Virus record (IMG/VR): IMGVR_UViG_3300005935_000071 | Span: 1 to 32,310 of that record | Source: a virus | Direction: 5' to 3' (one strand) | DNA length: 32,310 bases | Shown: one piece after another, positions 2,900 through 29,542 of the stretch | Layout: the number at the start of each line of letters is the position of its first letter | How positions within the stretch are numbered: position 1 is the stretch's first letter | Program-made: the position numbers and the translations under genes | The notes under the pieces: generated by a model | Told to the model about the DNA's origin: nothing | The model's database searches: none | Seen by the model: the letters and a program-made list of their open reading frames with translations, nothing else

Positions 2900-2918
2900 G
2901 TTAATTAATTAATTTAAT
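2900..2918. repeat. 19-bp AT-rich junction motif, copy 1
   Basis: GTTAATTAATTAATTTAAT, a near-palindromic copy of the motif that recurs at gene junctions through the window. It sits between the converging replication block and the leftward late block and overlaps the end of the giant gene. The match continues into the bases CATCT, an extension shared with the copies at 19636 and 31138. Confidence 0.75.
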
Positions 2919-5900
2919 CATCTTTCTCAACCATTAATTTTTTAACTTCATCTCTAAATCCTTCACTAGCAATTCCTCCAATTCTGGAAACTTTTCCATA
3001 CTCTTTCCAGAGTTGGGACTTTTCTTCTGCATTAGATTTCTTTAACCTACCTACAAAGACCTTTGCTCTTGCATCAGTAGATAATCCCTTCAACCGTAAC
3101 CAGAAAGATCTATTAGGTAAAGTCTTAGTCTTCTCTTGAAATTCAAATCTATCTCTTAATCTATCTCTAGTATCTAGGTCTTTATAAGAATTAATATTCT
3201 TAAATATTTCCTTCCTAGTTACACTCTTCTCAAACAAATAACCTTCTGTTAACCTATCTAACTCTCTTCTTTGAATCCATCTTTTTATATCAGAAGCTTC
3301 ATCAGCAGATTCAATCTTACCTGCAAATTTAGAATAAGGATTAGTCACTCCAAAGAATCTCTTAATTATAGGAGTCTTTGCTAACACCATTGCTAAATGT
3401 TGCTCTCTCTTGTCCTTAGGTAATCCTCTCATTGCATCATATCCTTGGCCTAATAGATAACTCCAAAGAGTTCCATTAGTTGTAAGTTCTTCAACTGCAT
3501 ATCTTGTTCTTTCAGGACTTAACCCAGTTACTTCTCCAAAGTCTGTATAGGCCTGAGGTGTCCGTCCAGGGATATGTTCTTCTTTTGACTGAGGAAAACT
3601 AAAGGGTTTATCAGTCTTACGCCAAATATCTTCATTCAACCAGAAGTCTTTATTAGTAACATAACCAAGTGCACCACTAACTGTTGGAGGAAGAACTCCA
3701 CTAACTTCACTAACAGGTGAGAATTGCTTTAAGGTATCAGTTAGTTGATCTACATCTACTTCATTCCCTAACCATTTATCTGTTGATCCTTCAAATAATG
3801 TCTTGAAGAATCTCTGACCTGGGTCTAAGGGAATCTTTAAATAAGGATATCTAATCTGGCCTTTTTCATCTTCAAATCCAAAGTCATCTCCAATAGGAAT
3901 GACTAAGTTATTCTGAGTATTAATATTACCTTTTAGTGCCTTAGAACTTTCTGGATGCATCTTGCCCATAGCAATATAAAGACCAGAAACCAGTGCTCCA
4001 AACTGAGCTAATTTATAAGTTGAACTAAGAGCTGTACCTGAGCCTGGTTTAAAAGCTCTAAACATCCCTCTTGTTCCCTGAATACTTGCATTGAGATAAG
4101 GAATAGCATTATCCAAAGCCTTAGCAATTCCTCCTCCTTGTCCAAAGTCCATGTAGTCTCTTGCTGCAAATGTAGCTTCTCTCGTTATATCTTTGTTCTT
4201 ATAAGCTTGCTCATAAGTAATGCCATTCTCCTTAGCACGATTCCTAATAACTCTATCTCTAATTGCTAACCTAGTCATTATCTCTGAAGTCTCACCAAAG
4301 TAACCTAGGAAATTATATATAGAATCAATCGGCCCTTCAATATGTCTACCTCGTTGAAGTATTCTACCTTGATGAACTAAAAACTCCATTCCTCCACCTT
4401 CATTAATATAGTCATTATACCTCTTACCTTTAGTCGCAGCATCAGTAAATACTCTTGATAAGTCAGATGTAATTTGAGCAGCAAATACTGGAGCATGAGG
4501 GCTATAAGCACCAGACCATTCACCATCCTTAAATGTTCTAGCTGTGAACCAAGTATGCATTACATCTCTTGGTAAATTAGCTAAGGCAAAACTCCAGTTA
4601 ATTCCAGTAGCAAATGTTCTTAAGACTGGAGAACCTGAAGCATAGCGCATTAATTGACTATATCGATAAGTGGTTTCTGGAGAACTTACAATCCATTCCT
4701 TAGACATCTCTGGAGATAAATAAATAGCTTTCCTTTCACCTTTTTCATACATGAAGACTCTAGACCAACCAGAAGGAATTATGTCTGATTTTTCTTCTTT
4801 AACTCTAACAAATGGATTAGTTTTATCTCGTCTGGCAATTTCAAGCAGAGACTTATTAGCTTCATTATTTAATATTCTTCCATAGGCTCTATTAAATACT
4901 TCCAGCGCCATTATCTCTGAACTAGGCTCAAATATATCTGTGTCTCGTCCTTTAGCTAATGACTCAACTCCAGAATCATACACAGTTCTTTTCTTTCCAC
5001 CTACTTTAGCTCCATACCTTTTATCATAAACGTCTACGAGTTTAAGTCTCCGATAATTATGAGATGAAAGTGCAGTGAATTCCTCTTGACTAATTAACTC
5101 TGCATCAAGCATATCTTTAAGTGGTTTCTTCATCCACTCATAATAAGCTCTAGCTCTGCCTCTAATTAGTTTTCCTTTTTCAGGTGTTAGCTTCTCAATG
5201 AGTCCGAAGAGTTCTGAATAAGCAACTGAGTTCTTAGGTTCAAGCCCATCAGGAAATTTAAACTGTGTTGTACTCTTATACTTTCCAATATCTACCATTC
5301 GATCAGATAAGATTAATGTATCTAAGATTTGCTTATCACTTTTATTTAATCCACTGTAGACTTCCTTCTGCAACTGCTTAAGTAAATTTGCCGAGATAGA
5401 GCTAGCTCCCTTTGCAAGATACATTTTCTGAATTGCTTTGTATCCTTCCTCACCAAGATTATTTAGTAGATCAATTCTTATATTACCTGATCTGTCAATA
5501 AATGCTTTGTTAAATTCTTCCCTTAACATTCTTGCAGCTTGCATTGGTTTGAAAGACTTCATCCCACGAGCACGTTTAGTATATTCAGATACTTTCTTTG
5601 CCCCAGCTATGATTGCTTTAGTAGCATCTGTAGGATCAAACCCACTATAAAGTTTAGTTCCTTTCCCAGATGATCCTCCATCCTTATCACTTGGCTTTAT
5701 AGGAAGTGGCTTATTCTCACCAAAGTAATCTATATCAACAGTAGTATCTACCTCAGCTTTTGGTACTTTCCCTTCTTCAATCAATTCAGTTCGTTTAATT
5801 ATTTTATTATCTATCCTCCTCGCCCAGCTTGCTGCATCAGATACAGTTTCCTTCCATGCAAAATGATCTGCACCGGAGATAAAATCTTCTCTTAATTCCT

Positions 5901-7305
5901 CGCCTCTCGATGCAAGATTACTAAGTGTTTCTCTAACCTTAGCAATATCTACATCTTTATCTCCATGATACCAGCGATTAACATCATTGATTAGTTTCTG
6001 AGTAAATAATTCTACATCTCCATTAACAGCAGTCTCTCGTTCTTTATAAAGATTATTAAACACTTCAGTTGTCTTAATATCTTGGAAGAAAGGTGACTTT
6101 TCTCCTTCGATAGAAGGAATGGAAGTGCCAGTTTTTTGATCTAGGTCGATTATCTTTTCTGGTATCTTAGTAAGTTTAACATCTATAACCCCATCCATTA
6201 CTTTATCAAATTCAGGATTGAGTTCTATGTAAGGAGTTTTAGGTACATCTTCTACCATAGGACCTACTCTATCCTTAAATCCCTTCTTCCTTTTATCTAC
6301 TTTAACCTCTCTCATTTTCTCAGGCTTAAGCATCTTAGCCTTAGCAATTTCCTCTGCCTGCCTAGTCAACTCCTCCCTAATAAGTAAATCTTCACTAATC
6401 TTCTTCCCAACTCTCTCAGCTTCTAACTCTAATTGATGCTTCTCAGCTTCAAGAACTTTCTTCTGAGCCTCCTTTATTAATACATCAGGGATTTCATTTA
6501 CAGCTTTTTCCTTCTCAATAATATCTTTAGCTTTCTTAACAATAGTCTCAGTGTCCTTAGCAAATTTCTTACCTCTAGGACCATGAAGTAACAGTCCCAT
6601 AGTCATTAAGCCAGTTATATCCCCAGCAAACTTTGCTAATCCTCTAATATTAGGTGAGTCTTCAAACATTGGTCGAGAAGCAACTTCCTGACCAATAGCA
6701 CTTAAAGCACTCATAGGAGCCATTGCAACCTGAGCAACTAACTGTGACTCAGGTGTAGGCTTGCCTAGTATAAACTTGCCAGGCTCAAAGAATTCCATTG
6801 ATCTTTGCATACCTTTAGAAGCAGCATTGTACATTTCTTCTATGTTAAAAGTGCCATAAGCTAACTGACTCACACCTTCTCGAGCAACACTAATTCCAGC
6901 ATCTCCTAATCCCACCATAAATCCAGGCAGAGACAGAGCAAAGTCAAGACCTCCTTTAATAGTCTCCATAGGATTCATAGCCATAGTTGAAATACCTTTA
7001 AATGTATCAGCTATGACAGAACCTACTTTACTCATATCTTGAGAAAAAGTTCCTATATCATCACCTATGTTAAACCTAGCTGTAGGCTTAATATCTACTA
7101 AAGATACAGGTATAGGAATATTAGCATTTGAGAATCTGCTAGGAGTGTCTAACTCAATAGGCTCTTCAGGAGTAACTGGCGTAGCTATGCTCGGCCCAAA
7201 CATCTGATTAGTCAGACTTCCTTTACTCTCTGAAGGGTCAAATATCTGATCTGTCAATGACTTTTGCTTAACCTCAAACATCTGGTCTGTTAAACTAGTT
7301 GGCAT
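2914..7305 (-). CDS. giant internal virion/DNA-ejection protein, polyvalent LPD38-like region
   Basis: A 1463-residue protein, last gene of the late block, in the place where podoviruses keep their largest ejection protein. The N-terminus carries three copies of a heptad-like motif, SLTDQMF (4-10), SLTDQIF (16-22) and SLTNQMF (30-36). A hydrophobic Gly/Ala/Met-rich stretch follows (about 100-240), then a charged predicted coiled coil (about 240-345). The middle and C-terminal parts, including FALANLPRDVMHTWF (near residue 908), resemble the large polyvalent protein associated domain 38 region of phage proteins. No lysozyme or transglycosylase catalytic motif was recognised. Start: ATG preceded by AGGTG, overlapping the upstream gene by 11 bases. 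Likely ejected with the DNA to form a channel through the cell envelope; this function is inferred from size, position and composition. Confidence 0.7.
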   Translation of the reverse strand: MPTSLTDQMFEVKQKSLTDQIFDPSESKGSLTNQMFGPSIATPVTPEEPIELDTPSRFSNANIPIPVSLVDIKPTARFNIGDDIGTFSQDMSKVGSVIADTFKGISTMAMNPMETIKGGLDFALSLPGFMVGLGDAGISVAREGVSQLAYGTFNIEEMYNAASKGMQRSMEFFEPGKFILGKPTPESQLVAQVAMAPMSALSAIGQEVASRPMFEDSPNIRGLAKFAGDITGLMTMGLLLHGPRGKKFAKDTETIVKKAKDIIEKEKAVNEIPDVLIKEAQKKVLEAEKHQLELEAERVGKKISEDLLIREELTRQAEEIAKAKMLKPEKMREVKVDKRKKGFKDRVGPMVEDVPKTPYIELNPEFDKVMDGVIDVKLTKIPEKIIDLDQKTGTSIPSIEGEKSPFFQDIKTTEVFNNLYKERETAVNGDVELFTQKLINDVNRWYHGDKDVDIAKVRETLSNLASRGEELREDFISGADHFAWKETVSDAASWARRIDNKIIKRTELIEEGKVPKAEVDTTVDIDYFGENKPLPIKPSDKDGGSSGKGTKLYSGFDPTDATKAIIAGAKKVSEYTKRARGMKSFKPMQAARMLREEFNKAFIDRSGNIRIDLLNNLGEEGYKAIQKMYLAKGASSISANLLKQLQKEVYSGLNKSDKQILDTLILSDRMVDIGKYKSTTQFKFPDGLEPKNSVAYSELFGLIEKLTPEKGKLIRGRARAYYEWMKKPLKDMLDAELISQEEFTALSSHNYRRLKLVDVYDKRYGAKVGGKKRTVYDSGVESLAKGRDTDIFEPSSEIMALEVFNRAYGRILNNEANKSLLEIARRDKTNPFVRVKEEKSDIIPSGWSRVFMYEKGERKAIYLSPEMSKEWIVSSPETTYRYSQLMRYASGSPVLRTFATGINWSFALANLPRDVMHTWFTARTFKDGEWSGAYSPHAPVFAAQITSDLSRVFTDAATKGKRYNDYINEGGGMEFLVHQGRILQRGRHIEGPIDSIYNFLGYFGETSEIMTRLAIRDRVIRNRAKENGITYEQAYKNKDITREATFAARDYMDFGQGGGIAKALDNAIPYLNASIQGTRGMFRAFKPGSGTALSSTYKLAQFGALVSGLYIAMGKMHPESSKALKGNINTQNNLVIPIGDDFGFEDEKGQIRYPYLKIPLDPGQRFFKTLFEGSTDKWLGNEVDVDQLTDTLKQFSPVSEVSGVLPPTVSGALGYVTNKDFWLNEDIWRKTDKPFSFPQSKEEHIPGRTPQAYTDFGEVTGLSPERTRYAVEELTTNGTLWSYLLGQGYDAMRGLPKDKREQHLAMVLAKTPIIKRFFGVTNPYSKFAGKIESADEASDIKRWIQRRELDRLTEGYLFEKSVTRKEIFKNINSYKDLDTRDRLRDRFEFQEKTKTLPNRSFWLRLKGLSTDARAKVFVGRLKKSNAEEKSQLWKEYGKVSRIGGIASEGFRDEVKKLMVEKDD

Positions 7306-16296: not shown

Positions 16297-18243
16297 TTAG
16301 GCTCCCACAGGTACCATGTTGCCAGCTTGAACTTGCTGCGCTACGGCATCATCTGGCATTGTCTGAGTTTGAATCTGACTCATGTTACGTTTGAAGTCTT
16401 CAACGTTCTTAGCTCCGAGTTCACTTGCTATATACATGAAAATTCTAGTTGTATCAAACTGCTGAGAAAGTTCAGGTGATTGACCAATTACTTTAAACAA
16501 CTCAATCCATGCATCAGAGAAGTTACCTCCAGGTATTGAACCATCTCGGACGATTAAGTCTGTAGAGATAGCCAAGTCATAAGGAGAAACTTTAACCCGT
16601 TGCTGTTTTCCAAATGTTTTAACTAACTGTTGTTCAGATCTTCCAGCAATCTTCACATACATGTCTTGAGACATATACTGTTGGGTATGGACAGCGAACA
16701 TAGTACCAACATCTTGCATGAATTGCATACTTATGATCATTGCTAGTCTTTGCAAGCGTGATACAGCAGATCCTCTAGTGCCTTGGAATTCACCTTTAGT
16801 TAAACGCTCAGGTCCACCTTGACGAAGTGCACCTTGCATTGATGCATCAGCTCCAGATACTCGATCCATCATTGAGGTTATATAAGTTGCATCTGCCATA
16901 TTAGCACGAGTTATGTCATTTACTTGAAGTTGCTGAACTACCTTATCAACTCCACGTCCCCATGCAGGTCGACGTAAGCGGATTAATTTACCAGGTTCTG
17001 GATCTTCAAGATCCTTAATATTAACAAGATAAGGATCAACAATTAGCATATCGTTAATAGCTTTGCGAACATTAGCTACATGCGAGTTAAACATGAAGTC
17101 GAGAGTACCTTGTAGTCCACCTAGAATTTCCATTCTTGCAATAGGTGTAATTGAGTATCCATCGTATTCAGGCGATGCAACTGCTACAGGATACATCCCA
17201 TGATTATGATCAGATCGCTCACATTGAGTAATGATATCATCTGCTGATAGACAAAAGAACCATTTCTCTGGATATTCTCCATCTGATAATCCCCATTCTT
17301 TTGGAATTAGATTAACATACATTTTGATATTATCAACTGGATTTGTAGACTGATTCATTGTCCTGCGTGAATCAGATGCTCCTCCAAACTTAATCTCTCG
17401 CTCACTCTGGTCATTTGAAAGGGAAGATTTTTTATCTTTTTTCGCTTTAAGATACCTTACATTAAATACACCTGAACTAGGCACTGCTTCATCTGAAAGC
17501 ATATTCATGTAGTTATCACGATCTATCCATCCGTTAAATTCGCCAGATTGAATATTACTACTAGCAACAGATGGATCAGGTAGCCACATATAAGGATCGA
17601 TGTTAGTCAGATCATTTCCTTCAAATATTACCTTATCAATAAAGTCTACAAAGTCAGTAGAAGACTCACCTAATCCACTCTCTGTAATTGACTGAGATTT
17701 AATCGGAACTCGGCCATTTCTAGTTACCCACCCAGGAATTCCAATACCTACTCCATAACTTAGAGAGTCTCTAAGGATTGTATGCAGAGCTAATGGCACC
17801 TTAGTTTTAATACAGTGAAGATTAACAACTAACTCCATCAACATAGCACCAATAGTATCATCATCTTCAACACCCTCATATTGGAACATAGGATTTTGAA
17901 AGAAAGCCATTGAGAGATAAGTTAACAATGATTCAAGGACAGAATAAGAATAAGGGAAAACTATTGATACAGGTTTTGTAGAGTCCTTTTTCTTAAGAAT
18001 CTTCTCTTTATCCTTTAAAGGGATATAAGCTGTTAATGTCTTATCTATTTCTCTCCAGGAAGGAAATCTCTTAGCCATTTCATTCCTTGACTCTCTAGCC
18101 CTAGTCCAGATTTTATTCCTTAGCTTAGTATGAAAATCGCTGTCTGGCTTTAAGTCTAAACCATTAGGATATTCATAATCAAAGCTCATCCTTGAATAAT
18201 CTGGCTTTGGTTCTGAAGGCTCACCTGATACAATGTAAGGCAT
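16297..18243 (-). CDS. portal protein
   Basis: A 648-residue protein with the layout of a podoviral portal (head-tail connector). The N-terminal region holds the hydrophobic segment IVFPYSYSVLESLLTYLSMA leading to FFQNPMFQYEG (about residues 93-125). A central region ends in MEILGGLQGTLDFMFNSHVANVRKAINDMLIVDP, the stem/crown region that typically contacts terminase and DNA. The C-terminal helical part contains ATYITSMMDRVSGAD and RLQRLAMIISMQFMQDV, followed by a Gln/Met-rich end. It would form the dodecameric ring through which DNA is packaged and ejected. The start ATG has GGGGAG seven bases upstream. The call rests on this pattern plus position before scaffold and capsid. Confidence 0.85.
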   Translation of the reverse strand: MPYIVSGEPSEPKPDYSRMSFDYEYPNGLDLKPDSDFHTKLRNKIWTRARESRNEMAKRFPSWREIDKTLTAYIPLKDKEKILKKKDSTKPVSIVFPYSYSVLESLLTYLSMAFFQNPMFQYEGVEDDDTIGAMLMELVVNLHCIKTKVPLALHTILRDSLSYGVGIGIPGWVTRNGRVPIKSQSITESGLGESSTDFVDFIDKVIFEGNDLTNIDPYMWLPDPSVASSNIQSGEFNGWIDRDNYMNMLSDEAVPSSGVFNVRYLKAKKDKKSSLSNDQSEREIKFGGASDSRRTMNQSTNPVDNIKMYVNLIPKEWGLSDGEYPEKWFFCLSADDIITQCERSDHNHGMYPVAVASPEYDGYSITPIARMEILGGLQGTLDFMFNSHVANVRKAINDMLIVDPYLVNIKDLEDPEPGKLIRLRRPAWGRGVDKVVQQLQVNDITRANMADATYITSMMDRVSGADASMQGALRQGGPERLTKGEFQGTRGSAVSRLQRLAMIISMQFMQDVGTMFAVHTQQYMSQDMYVKIAGRSEQQLVKTFGKQQRVKVSPYDLAISTDLIVRDGSIPGGNFSDAWIELFKVIGQSPELSQQFDTTRIFMYIASELGAKNVEDFKRNMSQIQTQTMPDDAVAQQVQAGNMVPVGA

Positions 18244-21463: not shown

Positions 21464-23965
21464 CTAATTCTCAGTTGAGAATTTACCACGCTTACCTGTA
21501 ATACTTGCGTATAAAACTTCAACATCAGTAGCTCCTGCTATACCGACATAAACTTTAACTTCATTACCAACTGTGTATGTTCCACTAATTAAAGGAGCTA
21601 AATATGATCCAGCAGAGTCTGTACTTCTATACACACTTTTCATAGCAGCAGTAGCTACTATAGCTTTAGATGTTGCAGAATCCATAAAAAGTGTACCAGT
21701 TATTTCAAGTATATTTTCTGTTACTGTAAAAGTAGTAGTTTCACTCTCAAGAAATATAGAAATTGAAGCAAATACTCTTACAGTACAAGCTGTTGCGCTA
21801 AGGACAACCCTAATATCGTAAGTATCTCTTAATTCTATAATATCTGCTGGAATTGTAAATAAGACTGTATTACCAGGGCTTACAGTTAAACCCTTAACTT
21901 CCGCACTATACGGAGGTGTAAAAGAACCTATAGAAGATGTTGCTGGAGCTGTTATAAACGTTTGACTAATATCTGATCTATCTCCAGTAGTATTAACTAA
22001 ACCAAAATACTCAATATGATCTATTCTATTACCATAAGAAGCCGAAAGAACTTTAATGAAATCAGCAGGAACTAACCCATAATCTTGAGCGTTTTCATAT
22101 ATATATGGAGTAATAATATCGCAATTATACAGTGTAGCATCAATCATATGATAGTTATACGTAGGAGCAAAATTTACACCTATAGCGTATATCCTTAAAG
22201 ACTCAAAACTGCAGGCCTCAAAATAACTTGTAGCATCAGAATAAATTAATCCTCTTTCCCCGCTACTTTGTTGATCTTGAAGTTCATTAGAAGCAGTTTT
22301 TATAATAGTATTTAACATTTTTGAGTTATTAAGAAGTTGTATTGTTTTAACCCCGCCAAATACAAATGATAACTCCGAATAATGCAAGCTTGCTTTATTT
22401 AATATTATTGCTCCGTGCCTTCCAGTAGACTGCGCCCTATTATCAAAATCAATTGTAGTAATACATCCCAAAAGTAAATTTTCTATTTTTATTTTCCCTA
22501 TTCGAGATTCTGTAGCAGCACTTGTACTTCCATCAACTAAAACAATAGCACTAACACCATAGCTCCCTAAAAAATACATATTTTTTACTATTATACCATC
22601 TGGAACACCTGCATCAACTCCAGCAGGAGTGTAATTAAGGTCGAATTTTATTATACTGCGCGCAGCAAGATTTTCACTCCCTGAAAAATTATTAAATTCG
22701 CAGTTCATTATATACCCTCCATTAATAAATAGAAAGTATTCAAAGTCAACTGCGCTTCCATATGTTCTACCAACACGTTCAGAATAGATAATTACATTAC
22801 TTGCAATAATATTATTTATATGATGATCTACTATACCTGTACGACAGTCAATCATATATACTGCCATAGCACCATTAGTGCACTTAATCTTACAATTATT
22901 CCAGTTAATAATTTGATATTCATATATAGGTATTGCTTTTGATGTATCACCAATACTTGGCTCTACATAATATATACTACCTTTATTATAATTAACTATT
23001 TTTCCAGTATTATGAGCAGAAATTATAGCATCAATATCATCAGTTACACCGTCACCTTTTGCCCCAAACCATTCTGGATATACTCCATATATAACACCAG
23101 AAAAAGATATATTACCAGTACCATCAAATACCTGACTCAGAGAAGATTCAAATGTACCAGATATAGTTAAAGTTATACCGAAATTTATAGTTAAGATACT
23201 ACCAGCAGATATAATAGTATGTATATTATCTGATATAGTATCATCTTGACCAATAATAAATAATCCATTAATGATTAATGTAACTTCTTCAGACTCAATC
23301 CAAGTTAAGGCAGAATGAAGACTATTAAACCAACTTAATTTAAGTACTGCACTATCAAGAAAGTCAAAGTCTCCAACTCCGGCGAAGAGTTGGTAGTTGC
23401 CAGCTTCAATGTTTTTAAGGTTTCCTACTTCTACCCCAGCATTTAAGGATAGGATATTCCCAGGAGATTCCCACTTAAGAATTACATCATCTCCAGGTGA
23501 GTATGATGCAGTAATTGTATGAGGTTTAGATACAATAAGAGTTACTGTGTCATTAGTAGTTAAGGCAAATGCAGCTTCAATGTTAGAGAACCAGCCAGAC
23601 TTAATTACACTCCCACCAGCAAAATCTATATTTCCAGCACCTGTGAAGACCTGACGATTTTCTGCAGAGATGTTAGTAGTTTGAATATTAAGATAGCCTG
23701 AGTTAGTAATAGACCCATTACGAAGAAACTTAAGTCTAACATTTGCAGGGACTGTTAAGTTTGTTACTACTTGTGGAGAAGCTATTACTATCTCACGGTC
23801 TGTAGCGCCGACTGCAGTTATAGCAGTATTTAGGTTTGTATAAGCTCTAGCATCAGTCCATAGACCATCTGGCGAGGTTACTATAATGTCTCGAAAGAAT
23901 TCAGCTGATGCAGTTGACACTAATAATGTTAATGAAAGGATTATTGAAAGAATTAATTTTCTCAT
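21464..23965 (-). CDS. tailspike-like pectate-lyase-fold protein with signal peptide
   Basis: An 833-residue protein with parallel beta-helix character. Residues 1-21 form a classic Sec signal peptide (basic MRK, hydrophobic core, then STASA as AxA cleavage site). Three related modules follow, each starting with QxFxGxGx(I/F)xF and leading to a W-F pair (about 104-133, 190-220 and 276-316). The third ends in WFGAKGDGVTDD, the entry motif of pectate-lyase-type tailspikes. The rest is a long beta-helix with short polar repeats and a beta C-terminal domain. The expected job is host polysaccharide binding or cleavage, but a secreted depolymerase is possible given the signal peptide. The start has GGAG. 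No catalytic residues could be assigned. Confidence 0.75.
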   Translation of the reverse strand: MRKLILSIILSLTLLVSTASAEFFRDIIVTSPDGLWTDARAYTNLNTAITAVGATDREIVIASPQVVTNLTVPANVRLKFLRNGSITNSGYLNIQTTNISAENRQVFTGAGNIDFAGGSVIKSGWFSNIEAAFALTTNDTVTLIVSKPHTITASYSPGDDVILKWESPGNILSLNAGVEVGNLKNIEAGNYQLFAGVGDFDFLDSAVLKLSWFNSLHSALTWIESEEVTLIINGLFIIGQDDTISDNIHTIISAGSILTINFGITLTISGTFESSLSQVFDGTGNISFSGVIYGVYPEWFGAKGDGVTDDIDAIISAHNTGKIVNYNKGSIYYVEPSIGDTSKAIPIYEYQIINWNNCKIKCTNGAMAVYMIDCRTGIVDHHINNIIASNVIIYSERVGRTYGSAVDFEYFLFINGGYIMNCEFNNFSGSENLAARSIIKFDLNYTPAGVDAGVPDGIIVKNMYFLGSYGVSAIVLVDGSTSAATESRIGKIKIENLLLGCITTIDFDNRAQSTGRHGAIILNKASLHYSELSFVFGGVKTIQLLNNSKMLNTIIKTASNELQDQQSSGERGLIYSDATSYFEACSFESLRIYAIGVNFAPTYNYHMIDATLYNCDIITPYIYENAQDYGLVPADFIKVLSASYGNRIDHIEYFGLVNTTGDRSDISQTFITAPATSSIGSFTPPYSAEVKGLTVSPGNTVLFTIPADIIELRDTYDIRVVLSATACTVRVFASISIFLESETTTFTVTENILEITGTLFMDSATSKAIVATAAMKSVYRSTDSAGSYLAPLISGTYTVGNEVKVYVGIAGATDVEVLYASITGKRGKFSTEN

Positions 23966-23999: not shown

Positions 24000-26885
24000 T
24001 TATTTAACAGCTTGAATTCTAGATTGCCAACTTGACCCTATTGATGAAGGTTTTGTTCTTGATTTAAGTTTTTCTTTATGAATAAGAACTGGCTTAAGCT
24101 CAGGCCTTATAAATACTTCCTCTCCCATATCTTCGAAGAACTGATCAAATCGATAAAGGCGATTACTTCTATTTTCACCATGTACTACCATAAAGACATA
24201 AGAAGGAGGAATGGTGTAGACAGTGGAGAACTTACTTCCCATATTCAAGTGTATGTCTTCATAAGGACTAATGTAAGGATAGACCTTTTGCACTAGGACA
24301 AGGAATGGACTGGTTCTAGCATGAGTATGTTTAGCGTAGAAATTATAAAGTCGTCCATCAGGAGCTTGACCCATTAGTTGATAGTTAATGATGAAGTGAG
24401 TTTCTGATTTAGTCTTAGTCATATGTTTTATATGGGCTATCCATCCAGGTGCTACCCAATCATCTGTGTCGAGTCTAGCCATTATGGTAGAGATTGGATG
24501 GCTGGAGTTTTTAGCTATGTATTCAGGACTGCCTTTGTCTTTCTCTTGTCCCCAGTTTCGAGATCTTGAAATGGAGCTTTCCCACTCTGAGAGGTTACTA
24601 GTAGTGTGGATAAAGTTGATATTTAATCCAGTCCAGTCTAAAGATTTAATTCTTTGAGTCGTTTCATTGTTAGGATCACCTACAACTAAGGAAATTGAGA
24701 AGTCTTTATCAGTTTGGCTTTTAAGTGAGTTGATGAAATATTTCTGCATCAGAGCTAATCGTGACTCAGTTAAAATTCCAATACCTTTACCTTCTCCCAT
24801 AGTATTGTAGATAGCTCTGGAGATTATGATAGGTGCAGTTAGGACCTTAGTTGGAATTGAAGGATCGGAAGTAATAGGAGGATCTAATTTACCTTTCCAC
24901 TTTTTATCTAAATAAGCTTTGTTAGTTTTGAGTAACGAGTCTACATCGAATCCCTCTTTCATTTGAACTATATTAAAAGTAGATCGACCAAAATGCTGAA
25001 TGCAAGTATTTAGAGCCAGCTCAGTTCTATATCCAGCTGCTCTTACTCCCCTGTTGTAATCAAGATCATCCCACATTCCCATAGCATAGTTAGGATCAAG
25101 GTGACCTACTATGTCTAAGATTCCACGCTTAATTACAGCGCATAGGAAAGCTACGAATGGAGGAGTAGTTGTTCTGTTGTAGTAATGAGATTCTAGATAT
25201 TCATTTACTCTACCCATCTTCCACAGGACTGCTTCTTCGGGCAGAAGTGAAGAGTGAAGAGAGAGACTATGGTGAGAGTCAACTGCATTGCCTTTTCCAT
25301 AGTTAGTCAAAGCACCTATAATGCCAAGGTCTTTGGACGAAGCCAAGTGGTCAACTAGTTTCTTTAACCATTCTTTAGATACAATAGTATCGTTGTTTAA
25401 CAAGCAAACATTAGGCGCAGATGAAGACTCTAATCCTTTATTAATAGCTCCTACAAATCCTTCATTAGTAGGCATTTGAATTAATAAGTGTTCAATGCCT
25501 GAGAGGACTTCCTTGACTTTATCCAAGCTTTCTTTTGTAGATGCATTGTCTACGAAGATTACTCTATATGTTCCAGGTTCTGTGTAGTCTTTAATAGAGT
25601 TTAAACATTCTATTGAATAATGCTCGTTATTGTAAGCAGGGATAATTATGTCGCAGAAGATAGGATAAGGATCTTCACGTAACCCCTGGCGAACTTTACT
25701 TACATAATTATAGTCTACATGTTTAACTTTTTCGCCTGAAGGACAACGATCGTAGGTTTCTTGATTTAGTAAAGACCATCCCTTTTCAATACAATACTCA
25801 CCTAATTCACATCCAGGGTAAGGTGCAAAGTAAGCCCATGAAGGCATTTCAGCGTCTATTTCATCAGCCATTTTAGATGTAGCTTGAATGTCCCATTTAG
25901 TTTCCCAGGGAATTGCTGTGATGTAATTAGCGTAGATCTTAGCTCCAGTTGACTTAATAATCTTGGCTGACTCTAGATTCTGCTCTACTGTGATTCCCTT
26001 TTTTAATTTATCTAAAATTCGCTGTGATCCAGATTCAAATCCTACAGAGATTAAATCCCAACCTATGTCTACAAGTCTTTGAACTAAGTCAGGATTCTTA
26101 CAAATTCCATCTGCACGACCAGATGCCCAGAAAGGCAGACCTATCTCAGGGTACTTATCTATAAATTCTTCTAACCAATTTCGCTGAAGAAGGAAAGTAT
26201 CATCATGGATCATTAAGCATTCAGGGTTGTAGAGAGTTACTAATTGTTTAAGTTCAGATATTACACTATCAACCGAGCGTCTTCGTAGGGCTTTACCAAA
26301 GTGATTGTTTTCTAAAGGTTGACAAAAGGCACAGTGATAAGGGCATCCTCTAGCTGCGCAGACTGAAGTCATTTTAGTGAGTTTTCCTCCATACCACCAG
26401 TTAGTACAATCTTCAATTGAAGTAGTGTAGATTGACCTATCTACGAATGGAAGAAGGTTTAAGTCCTTAGGCTTTTCACCAGTTATAGATCGTTTAAACA
26501 TTAAATGATCTTTAAGGAACTTAGGGAAAGTTAGCTCTGATTCACCTTTGAATATGTAGTCTATTTCAGGATTGTTGAGTAGTTCATTTGGAGCTGCAGT
26601 AGCATGGTAACCTCCTACTATGACCAGTGATCCGAGTTCTTTTGCATACTTTATTACTCTCATTCCTATGGCGTAGTAGGAACTTTTCATACTAATGGCA
26701 ATGAGATCATAGCCCGTTAGAGCAACTTTTAACTCTTTATCATTGGTTAAAGTCTTCATATCAAGAAAGCTTACATCACAGCCTGATTGTTTAGCTGCAG
26801 TGTAAGTCATACCAGCTCCATGGTCAATCCAGGAGTCTAGACCTTTTCCTTGATATGGGTAGAGGGAGACTATTAAAGTTTTCAT
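24000..26885 (-). CDS. B12-type radical SAM - glycosyltransferase GT2 - rhamnosyltransferase-like fusion
   Basis: A 961-residue multidomain enzyme. Residues 1-130 resemble a cobalamin-binding Rossmann domain (DLIAISMKSSYYAIGMRVIK, LVIVGGYHATAAP). Residues 170-400 form a radical SAM core with the cluster motif CPYHCAFC (Cys181, 185, 188), preceded by CAARG and followed by GFESGSQRILDKLKKG. Residues 409-660 form a GT2 glycosyltransferase (DIIIPAYNNEHYSIECLNSI, VDNAST, LNNDT at 496-500, MWDDLDYNRG at 604-612). Residues 680-961 resemble the putative rhamnosyltransferase family, with TESRLALMQKYFINSLKSQT and RLDTDDW (804-810). Such an enzyme could modify and transfer sugars. B12-radical SAM enzymes methylate or rearrange unactivated carbons; the real substrate is unknown. 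It follows the APS kinase gene after three bases. Confidence 0.8.
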   Translation of the reverse strand: MKTLIVSLYPYQGKGLDSWIDHGAGMTYTAAKQSGCDVSFLDMKTLTNDKELKVALTGYDLIAISMKSSYYAIGMRVIKYAKELGSLVIVGGYHATAAPNELLNNPEIDYIFKGESELTFPKFLKDHLMFKRSITGEKPKDLNLLPFVDRSIYTTSIEDCTNWWYGGKLTKMTSVCAARGCPYHCAFCQPLENNHFGKALRRRSVDSVISELKQLVTLYNPECLMIHDDTFLLQRNWLEEFIDKYPEIGLPFWASGRADGICKNPDLVQRLVDIGWDLISVGFESGSQRILDKLKKGITVEQNLESAKIIKSTGAKIYANYITAIPWETKWDIQATSKMADEIDAEMPSWAYFAPYPGCELGEYCIEKGWSLLNQETYDRCPSGEKVKHVDYNYVSKVRQGLREDPYPIFCDIIIPAYNNEHYSIECLNSIKDYTEPGTYRVIFVDNASTKESLDKVKEVLSGIEHLLIQMPTNEGFVGAINKGLESSSAPNVCLLNNDTIVSKEWLKKLVDHLASSKDLGIIGALTNYGKGNAVDSHHSLSLHSSLLPEEAVLWKMGRVNEYLESHYYNRTTTPPFVAFLCAVIKRGILDIVGHLDPNYAMGMWDDLDYNRGVRAAGYRTELALNTCIQHFGRSTFNIVQMKEGFDVDSLLKTNKAYLDKKWKGKLDPPITSDPSIPTKVLTAPIIISRAIYNTMGEGKGIGILTESRLALMQKYFINSLKSQTDKDFSISLVVGDPNNETTQRIKSLDWTGLNINFIHTTSNLSEWESSISRSRNWGQEKDKGSPEYIAKNSSHPISTIMARLDTDDWVAPGWIAHIKHMTKTKSETHFIINYQLMGQAPDGRLYNFYAKHTHARTSPFLVLVQKVYPYISPYEDIHLNMGSKFSTVYTIPPSYVFMVVHGENRSNRLYRFDQFFEDMGEEVFIRPELKPVLIHKEKLKSRTKPSSIGSSWQSRIQAVK

Positions 26886-26888
26886 AGT

Positions 26889-27224
26889 TTAATCCAAAGG
26901 CTCTTCATAAGTTGTGTCCTTCCATAACAGACCAAAAGGCATACATATTTCTATACATTCATTAAAGGTCTTCTGCATACTTTCTCTGAACTTCCTATTT
27001 GGGCTTATACAAGATATTATGACAGTTTTTCCTTGATCTTCTATTATTTTAGCTATTTTAGATATTCTCTCAATGTTAGTTTTTCTGCTTTTATTACTAT
27101 AACCAACTGGAAAATGCTTTCTTACTTCATCACCATCAAGAACTATGCCATTAACTTGCTTTGCTATCCTGTAGGCTAATGTAGTTTTTCCTGCTCCTGA
27201 TCTGCCAGTTATCCAGTATATCAC
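26889..27224 (-). CDS. miniature adenylylsulfate (APS) kinase
   Basis: A roughly 111-residue APS kinase-like protein. APS kinase phosphorylates adenylylsulfate to PAPS, the sulfate donor. Motifs present: Walker A TGRSGAGKTT, DGDEVRKHF, GYSNKSRKTNIERISKIAK and the strand VIISCISPNRKFRESM. Normal family members are near 200 residues; here the C-terminal part that usually contains the RDPKGLYKKA lid and FTGI segment is shortened to a remnant ending YEEPLD. Start: a GTG overlapping the upstream stop as GTGA, with AGGTGG upstream in that gene; an alternative GTG lies 15 bases earlier (27239). The next gene begins three bases after its stop. Activity of this short form is uncertain. Confidence 0.75.
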   Translation of the reverse strand: MIYWITGRSGAGKTTLAYRIAKQVNGIVLDGDEVRKHFPVGYSNKSRKTNIERISKIAKIIEDQGKTVIISCISPNRKFRESMQKTFNECIEICMPFGLLWKDTTYEEPLD

Positions 27225-27715
27225 TCTGTTTGATTCCACCTGAAGTTCTTTCTATCTTTAATAAATAAAGGATGGCTTGAGAGCTTATGGTATTCTATTT
27301 CTTTTGCCTTATCAGATAATAAGGGCTTCTGATGACTTTTCCAGAAGTTATACTTAATCTCTGAAATTACTCCATTTGTATAGCCGTATTTTACCAATTC
27401 TATGAACTCAGACTTCTTATCCCAACAGCGAATTTCTGAAGAGATTATTTCTTGTATTGGTCTTAGAATTACTATTATTAGAGTAGATGGAGTTTTTATT
27501 CTATGTAACAAGTGACAAAGACCAGGACATTGAATTACTACATTTTCCTTTGTTAGGTAATGATTGAGTAAGCGTTCATCATGATTGTTTAAGTATCTTT
27601 CATCAATTAATTCCTTGTTAGTATCAGCAGCGATTATCTTCGCAGCAATGCGTGTACCAGAGCGTTGAGGCCCAGAGATTACTATGCTGGAGAATTCTTT
27701 AAGTGATTCAAACAT
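27221..27715 (-). CDS. sulfotransferase-like protein (short)
   Basis: A 164-residue protein with the two PAPS-binding elements of sulfotransferases. The 5'-phosphosulfate loop is VISGPQRSGTRIAAKII (12-28), and the 3'-phosphate strand-helix is LRPIQEIISSEIRCW (84-98), containing the typical Arg-Pro and Ser-Ser. It is shorter than most carbohydrate sulfotransferases (commonly over 200 residues), so the acceptor domain is reduced. It overlaps the previous sulfotransferase gene by 8 bases and the APS kinase gene by 4. It probably transfers sulfate to a sugar or protein hydroxyl; a minor alternative is a P-loop kinase of another kind. Confidence 0.68.
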   Translation of the reverse strand: MFESLKEFSSIVISGPQRSGTRIAAKIIAADTNKELIDERYLNNHDERLLNHYLTKENVVIQCPGLCHLLHRIKTPSTLIIVILRPIQEIISSEIRCWDKKSEFIELVKYGYTNGVISEIKYNFWKSHQKPLLSDKAKEIEYHKLSSHPLFIKDRKNFRWNQTE

Positions 27716-28304
27716 CTAACACGCCCATAGGGATATAGTTATAATTATATTCTTTAATAAAACTCTTCTCAGTTTCCATTATAGCAAAAGCTGATTCTTT
27801 AGTATATTTTTGATCTGAAGGAATTACATTCTCAAAAGGTTTTTGAAGTAAGTAATCCTTATCATATGAGATTCTTAAGTATTTAAGTATGTTGTTTAAG
27901 TCTTCTTTTAAATTTTCTTGTTTACCAATAAATCTACAGCATTCTGTGAATTTCTTAAAATGACCTGTTAGGAATCCAGGATGAGTTTGTAGTATAGTGT
28001 CTATATAATCTTGAAATGGTAGATCAACTATTTCATTTATCCATATACCAGTTCTGTCCTTTACAGCTTCTTGCTTACATTGCCAGAAAGATCTGTACCA
28101 AGTTAGAGGATGACGTATGAAGCAAAAGTGTAAGTCTTCAGTAGATCCTATAATTTCCCTTACTTGTTGACATCCTATATGAGCATGAATACCAAGACCC
28201 TTATGCTCATGATCCATATTAGTCTCTTTAAAGTAATTAGTTATCCAAGTACCACCAGTTTTAGGAATGTGAAGGAAGATTGCTCTGTTTATTTGAATAG
28301 CCAT
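27708..28304 (-). CDS. carbohydrate sulfotransferase-like protein
   Basis: A 198-residue protein with clear sulfotransferase signatures: FLHIPKTGGTW (10-20) as the 5'-phosphosulfate binding loop and FIRHPLTWYRSFW (62-74) as the 3'-phosphate binding element, as in the Sulfotransfer_2/heparan 2-O type families. Aromatic and charged residues between the motifs (CKQEAVKDRTGIW) suit a sugar-acceptor cleft. The reaction is transfer of sulfate from PAPS to a glycan. The start ATG lies just after the preceding stop, with AAAGGAT as ribosome binding site. It belongs to the same tight cluster as APS kinase and the second sulfotransferase. Confidence 0.82.
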   Translation of the reverse strand: MAIQINRAIFLHIPKTGGTWITNYFKETNMDHEHKGLGIHAHIGCQQVREIIGSTEDLHFCFIRHPLTWYRSFWQCKQEAVKDRTGIWINEIVDLPFQDYIDTILQTHPGFLTGHFKKFTECCRFIGKQENLKEDLNNILKYLRISYDKDYLLQKPFENVIPSDQKYTKESAFAIMETEKSFIKEYNYNYIPMGVLDV

Positions 28305-28565
28305 TTAGTTATCTAATCCTTTGTCATAGTCAGTAAATTCAAAGTCTCCACCTTCTAATATATCAAACTTTAATTGTTCTAACGTACCAATTAATAGAAC
28401 TCTATTAAATCCATTTCTGAAGGTTCTTGTACTGTGATCATCTTTACGTGTATAAGCAATAGCAAGAGCTTCTATGTTGCCATTTCTTAATTCATCAAGG
28501 AGATCATTTATATTTTTAAATGCTCCAGTTTGATCAGCTATGTTTAGTTTCTGAACTGTACCCAT
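28305..28565 (-). CDS. hypothetical phage protein
   Basis: An 86-residue protein beginning MGTVQKLNIADQTGAF. It contains a pattern of small phage proteins I have seen without known function (NIEALAIAYTRKDD, then FNRVLLIGTLEQLKFDIL). The frame extends four codons upstream, but the ATG at 28565 overlaps the preceding stop as TAATG and GGGAGG lies in the last codons of that gene, so this start is preferred. It sits between a glycosyltransferase and a sulfotransferase gene, so it may serve the same pathway or merely be carried along. Confidence 0.5.
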   Translation of the reverse strand: MGTVQKLNIADQTGAFKNINDLLDELRNGNIEALAIAYTRKDDHSTRTFRNGFNRVLLIGTLEQLKFDILEGGDFEFTDYDKGLDN

Positions 28566-29542
28566 TATGCCTCCCAAGGTTTAGTCTTAAGCAATTGATC
28601 AAAGGTTATTATCTTCACTTGGTCAAGCCAGGCTTTTTCATCTTGTCCGAATGATATAGCTTGAGACCAGTGTTTGTTTATATCTAAGTATTTGCCAAAG
28701 CGTTCTTGGATTGCACTTTTATTTCTCAGCATCATTTCTTCTCCGCCGAGTACGTAGCAAGAAACAAGGAAGCCGAGAGTAGCAGGCCCTTCTCCGGACT
28801 TATTCCAGAGGCGGTAATTTCCTACTTTTGTCTTTGAAGAGTCATTAGAGTCTAGGTCAATTTTAGGAAAGGGTCCTATATGGATGCCTGGGTTAGTTGG
28901 TACTGCGTAGTTTTTAAACCCAAGAAGCCAAGGCTTAATTCCTATATGCATGTCACCTCCACCCCAAGATAACTTATGCTGAGAAAGTGCTCCATAGCCA
29001 TTGATAGTCTGCCAGAGACTCTTTCGGCAAATCCAAGGCATTCCTTTCCAAGTTATTGTGCGAACTTTATTATAACAAGTATTCCAATTACCTAGTTCGT
29101 TAACTGACATGTCTCTGTCGTGTTTAGCTGAACGTTCATGCTGATGTGCCCAAGAGATTGGTGCATGAGCGAAGGCTAGTTTAGTATTGTGCTTGTTTTT
29201 CTCCATGAAGTTGTAGAGGTCTAAGAACATATCTCTACCAATGATCATGTGAGAATCGACGCAGGAGATGTATTGACCTAGTGATTTTTCAACTGCTAGA
29301 TCACGAGCAGTGAATAAGCAAGGAAAGTCTTGATGGTAAATCTTAATTAATCTCTCTTTAATGTAACCAGTAGGGATTACACTAGGGAGTAGTTTGTAGA
29401 AGTTCTCATTAGAGTTATCGACTATAATGATTTCACAGTTTTTCAGTCCGAGAGGGCGAAGTTCTTCAATGCAGCTTCTGACTGTTACAGAGAGCATTGC
29501 AAGATCATTTCGATTAGAAATTATAATAGAGAGTTTTTTCAT
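28565..29542 (-). CDS. GT2-family glycosyltransferase with polypeptide GalNAc-transferase-like motifs
   Basis: A 325-residue glycosyltransferase of GT-A fold. The N-terminus KKLSIIISNRNDL and IIIVDNSNEN form the nucleotide-sugar domain; ARDLAVEKSLGQYISCVDSH (79-98) ends in a metal-binding DxH (DSH, 96-98). A later WGGGDMHIGIKPWLLGFKN (193-211), followed by PGIHIG, resembles the WGGEN...E..RvW.CGG...GH motif of polypeptide GalNAc transferases (GT27). DxH is characteristic of that enzyme class. Its role may be to start O-glycans on Ser/Thr or to extend a surface glycan; donor and acceptor are unknown. The start has only a weak Shine-Dalgarno. It is the first enzyme gene of the modification cassette. 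Confidence 0.75.
   Translation of the reverse strand: MKKLSIIISNRNDLAMLSVTVRSCIEELRPLGLKNCEIIIVDNSNENFYKLLPSVIPTGYIKERLIKIYHQDFPCLFTARDLAVEKSLGQYISCVDSHMIIGRDMFLDLYNFMEKNKHNTKLAFAHAPISWAHQHERSAKHDRDMSVNELGNWNTCYNKVRTITWKGMPWICRKSLWQTINGYGALSQHKLSWGGGDMHIGIKPWLLGFKNYAVPTNPGIHIGPFPKIDLDSNDSSKTKVGNYRLWNKSGEGPATLGFLVSCYVLGGEEMMLRNKSAIQERFGKYLDINKHWSQAISFGQDEKAWLDQVKIITFDQLLKTKPWEA

Follow-up and report, generated by a model that had tools for sequence, protein, structure and literature searches.

A phage polypeptide joining a B12-type radical SAM domain to two glycosyltransferase domains, a candidate enzyme for assembling edited glycans

The window analysed here, which is the whole 32,310-nt stretch of virus record IMGVR_UViG_3300005935_000071, encodes a 961-aa chain in which a B12-type radical SAM (rSAM) module is followed by a family 2 glycosyltransferase (GT2) domain and a second GT-A domain (GTc). 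We consider it likely that this is a modular, soluble phage enzyme that assembles a glycan and, through its rSAM domain, edits one of the sugars in it. In the mechanism that we propose, the host would supply the nucleotide sugars from which the two GT-A domains build the chain. The N-terminal rSAM domain, with SAM, a [4Fe-4S] cluster and probably cobalamin, would edit the sugar handled by the fused GT2; C-methylation, deoxygenation and ring rearrangement are the candidate edits. The product would then be sulfated or extended by the enzymes of neighbouring phage genes, and the acceptor may be a virion or exported phage protein or a host surface glycan. We infer three points, namely a sugar as the rSAM substrate, the use of cobalamin and the type of reaction. 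The reading as a whole is supported by the pairing of rSAM with GT2, their correlated trees, domain swapping and conserved motifs, by the predicted folds, with rSAM on AprD4/MgmA and both GT domains on GT-A enzymes, by HpnJ as the nearest family and by the sulfotransferase, APS kinase-like and GT2 neighbours.

One intact chain in a tailed phage

The open reading frame starts with ATG and contains no internal stop (Table 1). Four Pfam families scored above their curated cut-offs along it, namely B12-binding PF02310 at residues 22-123 (44.2 bits vs a cut-off of 32.1), Radical_SAM PF04055 at residues 178-338 (55.7 vs 29.5 bits), Glycos_transf_2 PF00535 at residues 413-558 (93.2 vs 23.3 bits) and Rhamno_transf PF11316 at residues 707-909 (30.2 vs 23 bits). 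They bore out an earlier note, which had read the gene as a single chain of a B12-like domain, a CxxxCxxC radical SAM core, a GT2 domain and a second GT domain. The note had also placed the gene in a phage, and the DNA polymerase, primase, TerL, portal and MCP genes in the window identify the setting as a tailed phage. Elsewhere in the window, at 2914-7305 on the minus strand, lies a 1463-aa protein that matches a PHROG of unknown function. The order rSAM-GT2-GT, for which the note knew of no characterised phage protein, was absent from the 50,697 phage records searched, and nothing relevant to a phage rSAM-GT fusion was found in the openly licensed literature.

Table 1. Features of the fusion gene and its neighbours in the window
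Feature	Position	Strand	Basis
Full ORF, 961 aa: B12-binding, radical SAM, GT2 and GT-A (PF11316)	24000..26885	-	Pfam, full-length relatives
B12-binding/radical SAM module, residues 1-398	25692..26885	-	Pfam, pLDDT mostly 80-97, fold matches
B12-binding domain, residues 22-123, GGYH and GESE motifs	26517..26822	-	Pfam, motif alignment
CxxxCxxC for the [4Fe-4S] cluster, C181/C185/C188	26322..26345	-	Motif alignment
GT2 domain, residues 411-665; LLNNDT, GMWDDxDYN and H-GRSTF motifs	24891..25655	-	Pfam, motifs, fold
Unconserved linker, residues 666-688	24822..24890	-	Model, codon-position differences
GTc, second GT-A domain, residues 689-925, DTDD motif, PF11316	24111..24821	-	Pfam, motif, fold
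APS kinase-like protein, 116 aa, short at C-terminus	26889..27239	-	Pfam, NCBIfam
F08 P-loop protein, sulfotransferase-like GPQRSGTR loop (weak assignment)	27221..27715	-	Pfam, motif
F07 sulfotransferase PF03567, PKTGGT and RHPxxxxxS motifs	27708..28304	-	Pfam, motifs
F06 GT2 family glycosyltransferase	28565..29542	-	Pfam
Fibre/beta-helix-like protein, N-terminal signal sequence, directly downstream	21464..23965	-	Sequence

A fusion produced by assembly or sequencing, which the origin of the window as a metagenomic contig would allow, is excluded for practical purposes. Five further viral contigs encode the full rSAM-GT2-GTc chain, 54-68% identical and with every catalytic motif kept, and a second record (L002) encodes a protein 100% identical to that of the window. 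The third-codon-position bias of the differences revealed coding constraint in the rSAM, GT2 and GTc parts, and hardly any in the linker between GT2 and GTc or in the C-terminal tail. The earlier note had asked for homologues with the same domain order and had named a frameshift at residues 400-410 or 670-680 as the observation that would overturn it; the five contigs supplied the homologues, and since both junctions are conserved across independent contigs the fusion at these positions is no artefact. The open reading frame is thus one intact chain.

Fused, split and permuted relatives

A profile of the rSAM part retrieved 21 viral loci, including the window's identical twin, and L037 was added through its GT2 part; beyond the window, the rSAM family covers 21 other viral contigs and one phage contig in a MAG. 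The rSAM-GT2-GTc architecture occurs in the window and in L003-L007, and rSAM-GT2 in L011, L014, L015, L017, L019, L021, L022, L023, L028 and L037. The order is reversed to GT2-rSAM in L009, the two parts are separate neighbouring genes in L008, L016, L018 and L024, and the contigs of L010 and L025 break off within the locus. In L008 the separate products are 407 aa (rSAM) and 357 aa (GT2) long. Architecture labels clustered on the rSAM tree. The cysteine triad C181/C185/C188 was invariant across the family, and together with LLNNDT, GMWDDxDYN and the DTDD of GTc it was conserved whatever the architecture, with slight variation in single members.

The same GT2 subfamily was always found near rSAM where the contig allowed it. 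All fetched GT2 relatives that scored at least 334 bits against the GT2 profile had an rSAM nearby, compared to none of those at 152 bits or below. The rSAM and GT2 trees were correlated (Mantel r 0.68, p 0.0005 by permutation), a value to which shared phage ancestry contributes. The F02/F03 gene families, which belong to the phage type of the window, are absent from five carriers (L008, L009, L016, L018 and L024), which indicates that the rSAM/GT2 pair moved between phage lineages. The idea of an assembly-line enzyme, put forward in the earlier note, thereby gained indirect support from domain swapping and permutation, rSAM/GT2 pairing and correlated trees. We regard the assembly-line reading as reasonable, and the permuted and split relatives strengthen it. 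One of the split loci also encodes a minor-capsid-like protein (L018:9218-10984) that resembles an intein splicing domain at a score under the cut-off.

The MAG member, L011 (MAG JAHFMX010000007.1), is a contig binned as bacterial that carries an rSAM-GT2 gene together with a fibre gene and TerL, and the latter two mark it as phage DNA. A conserved-peptide scan of 84,980 species genomes returned no close relative except this one contig, and the best score among 287 genomes of that MAG's phylum was 143 bits vs 770. A bacterial origin therefore found no close relative in scans that rely on conserved peptides or sample one phylum.

Two sibling phages, L106 and L147, have the gene order of the window (F04, F02, F06, slot, fibre F10, TerL F03) with another gene in the slot. 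The 542-aa slot gene of L106 (L106:9004-10632) consists of one other GT-like stretch and the same C-terminal GTc, and the 778-aa gene of L147 (L147:6468-8804) of two GT2 domains and the same GTc, both without rSAM; there was no rSAM match anywhere in the 46.9-kb record behind L106. The different front ends at a fixed slot show that rSAM is one of several exchangeable ones. Its absence from both siblings means that it is dispensable for the role of the slot, which counts against the glycan-editing reading.

The radical SAM module, the glycosyltransferase domains and their nearest relatives

Structure prediction, which the earlier note had proposed as a check, agreed with the domain assignment, the rSAM part fitting AprD4/MgmA and both GT2 and GTc fitting GT-A enzymes. 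The AlphaFold2 model, built on 24 sequences, had high confidence in the rSAM and GT2 parts and low confidence in GTc; a second model of GTc alone, from 8 sequences, reached a pLDDT of 71.5. The GT2 domain belongs to glycosyltransferase family 2 by its PF00535 score and by the acidic metal motif, with LLNNDT and GMWDDxDYN conserved. Among the GT-A enzymes that its model matched were polypeptide GalNAc-transferases, at Z about 22. The DTDD motif of GTc was invariant in the rSAM-fused copies (6/6) and reads DNDD in L106. The GTc model matched TarS, RmlT and SpsA at Z about 12, consistent with a GT-A fold, albeit at about 12% identity, and the predicted fold together with the family score places GTc in PF11316. 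The resemblance to putative rhamnosyltransferases noted earlier holds as a match to PF11316; rhamnosyltransferase is here the name of a Pfam family, and the nearest folds are the three enzymes above. To our knowledge, none of these three is fused to a radical SAM domain.

With a CxxxCxxC core and an N-terminal B12-binding domain, the rSAM module falls within the B12-binding radical SAM superfamily, but it passed none of the curated NCBIfam family cut-offs. The best matches were HpnJ, TIGR04013, BchE, MgmA and HpnR, all far below cut-off. Membership was rejected for HpnJ (TIGR03471, 120 bits vs a cut-off of 577.6), for AprD4 (NF033070, 56.4 vs 500 bits) and for MgmA (TIGR04014, 81.4 bits in a range of about 81-100, vs 360). 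HpnJ is the nearest curated rSAM family and the best annotated full-length match among plasmids (25-26% identity). HpnJ edits the glucosamine attached by the glycosyltransferase HpnI, completing the BHT cyclitol ether after HpnI has added the sugar and HpnK has deacetylated it (PMC12583986), and in the plasmid matches hpnJ overlaps hpnI, the rSAM gene standing first. The window protein likewise pairs a B12-type rSAM with a GT, and HpnJ is 25.9% identical to it over residues 1-397. In contrast to the window, HpnJ and HpnI are separate bacterial genes acting on a lipid-linked sugar, and a specific kinship of GT2 with HpnI was rejected at an hhalign probability of 0.3%. HpnJ/HpnI nevertheless offers a functional parallel for an rSAM that edits a GT-attached sugar. 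The failure to pass any curated cut-off and the GT2 domain's lack of specific relation to HpnI count against the glycan-editing reading.

The top Foldseek match of the rSAM model was AprD4, a radical SAM 1,2-diol dehydratase that acts on the aminosugar paromamine (Z 30.2, 384 residues aligned, rmsd 3.4); unlike the window protein, AprD4 has no GT fusion and spaces its cysteines as CxxxCxxxC. MgmA (9ccb), a B12-dependent glutamine C-methyltransferase, matched at Z 30.0 (340 aligned, rmsd 2.8) and is also similar in sequence past the cysteine motif, and OxsB, CysS and TsrM followed. The MgmA substrate is a peptide that belongs to methyl-coenzyme M reductase (PMC11796369), and, as the best-scoring solved cobalamin-binding relative, it counts against sugar editing because it methylates a peptide and no sugar.

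Cobalamin use is plausible from the sequence. The GGxH and GESE motifs of the B12-binding domain are retained in nearly all family members, yet the residues expected at the lower face of cobalamin, K67 and S69, are polar. In profile alignments the invariant Lys67 lies opposite MgmA Gln49, near that face, a match that takes the 20-residue offset of the crystallised MgmA chain to be a tag, and Ser69 aligns with TokK Trp76, which we take to face cobalamin. The B12 rSAM enzymes characterised before MgmA carry a hydrophobic residue at the lower face (PMC11796369). The polar pair, the top rank of AprD4 and the proximity of HpnJ would all suit a domain that keeps the B12-type fold, works without cobalamin and acts as an AprD4- or HpnJ-like sugar dehydratase or ring-rearranger, no methylase. 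To this we give a little less than an even chance, given the retained GGxH and GESE motifs, a PF02310 score above cut-off, the equal fold match of cobalamin-containing MgmA and the different cysteine spacing of AprD4. That the rSAM instead modifies a peptide, by MgmA-like C-methylation of a phage protein that is also glycosylated by the GT domains, appears improbable: MgmA is one of the two solved relatives closest in both sequence and fold, and the GT2 fold resembles polypeptide GalNAc-transferases, though GT-A folds are widely shared, but the MgmA cut-off is missed by far and the constant partner of the rSAM is a GT, with no fixed protein substrate.

Neighbouring genes and a phage route to edited glycans

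Upstream of the fusion gene lies a tight run of the APS kinase-like ORF, F08, the F07 sulfotransferase and the F06 GT2. The APS kinase-like protein leaves the last third of its family profile unmatched. Solved structures gave no support for F08 as a sulfotransferase, and F08 was left out as linkage evidence since it is common without rSAM. The corresponding stretch of relatives contains methyltransferases. At three loci (L015:7057-8004, L024:2513-3439 and L147:5401-6468) a neighbouring protein combines a class I methyltransferase with a kinase-like P-loop part. By hydropathy, no membrane-spanning stretch was present in the window cassette proteins. Among 11 related records, several of which may be fragments, there was no nucleotidyltransferase PF00483 gene, which speaks against own nucleotide-sugar synthesis, and no thymidylate synthase-type gene, and the only integrase was in a record of a different phage type. 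Together, these results support a soluble enzyme that uses host nucleotide sugars. The fibre-like protein directly downstream begins with a Sec-type signal sequence, as do its homologues in L004, L005, L007, L011, L014, L015, L019 and L021, and this, being unusual for a tail fibre, suggests an exported protein. Two more ORFs with signal-sequence-like N-termini (L007:15385-16563 and 16563-17414) lie beside phage structural genes.

The grouping of several sugar enzymes with a signal-sequence fibre-like protein could also mean that the cassette alters the host surface polysaccharide during infection, for superinfection exclusion or receptor masking, and phages are known to alter the serotype of their hosts through GT genes (PMC12619734). 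We find this rather unlikely, as the window cassette has no membrane GT or flippase and an integrase is missing from 10/11 related records, which makes lysogenic conversion unlikely. Hypermodification of the phage DNA with sugars is very improbable: DNA-decorating phage GTs are known, as cited in PMC12619734, but the lack of a thymidylate synthase-type gene in the 11 related records argues against it and the sulfotransferase neighbours point elsewhere. The glycan-assembly reading, in which the product would be decorated further by the neighbouring genes, has a known counterpart in mycobacteriophage virion glycosylation, where phage-encoded GTs build glycans (Freeman et al. 2023, as cited in PMC12619734). 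The window shares phage GTs with that system, but it combines them with rSAM and a sulfotransferase neighbour. We know of neither radical SAM nor sulfation in mycobacteriophage virion glycosylation.

If the glycan-assembly reading is true, the gene would represent a phage-encoded route to chemically edited glycans in which an rSAM sugar editor is physically linked to its glycosyltransferase, and the natural fused, split and permuted versions would form a tractable set for probing the radical step. It would also mean that, next to a fibre-like gene, phages have a fixed slot in which domains for glycan building are shuffled. More tentatively, we suggest that phages may encode self-contained, swappable enzymes that combine sugar transfer and cobalamin radical editing in one polypeptide, giving unusual C-branched or deoxy glycans that may also be sulfated, with the editing module exchanged at that slot.
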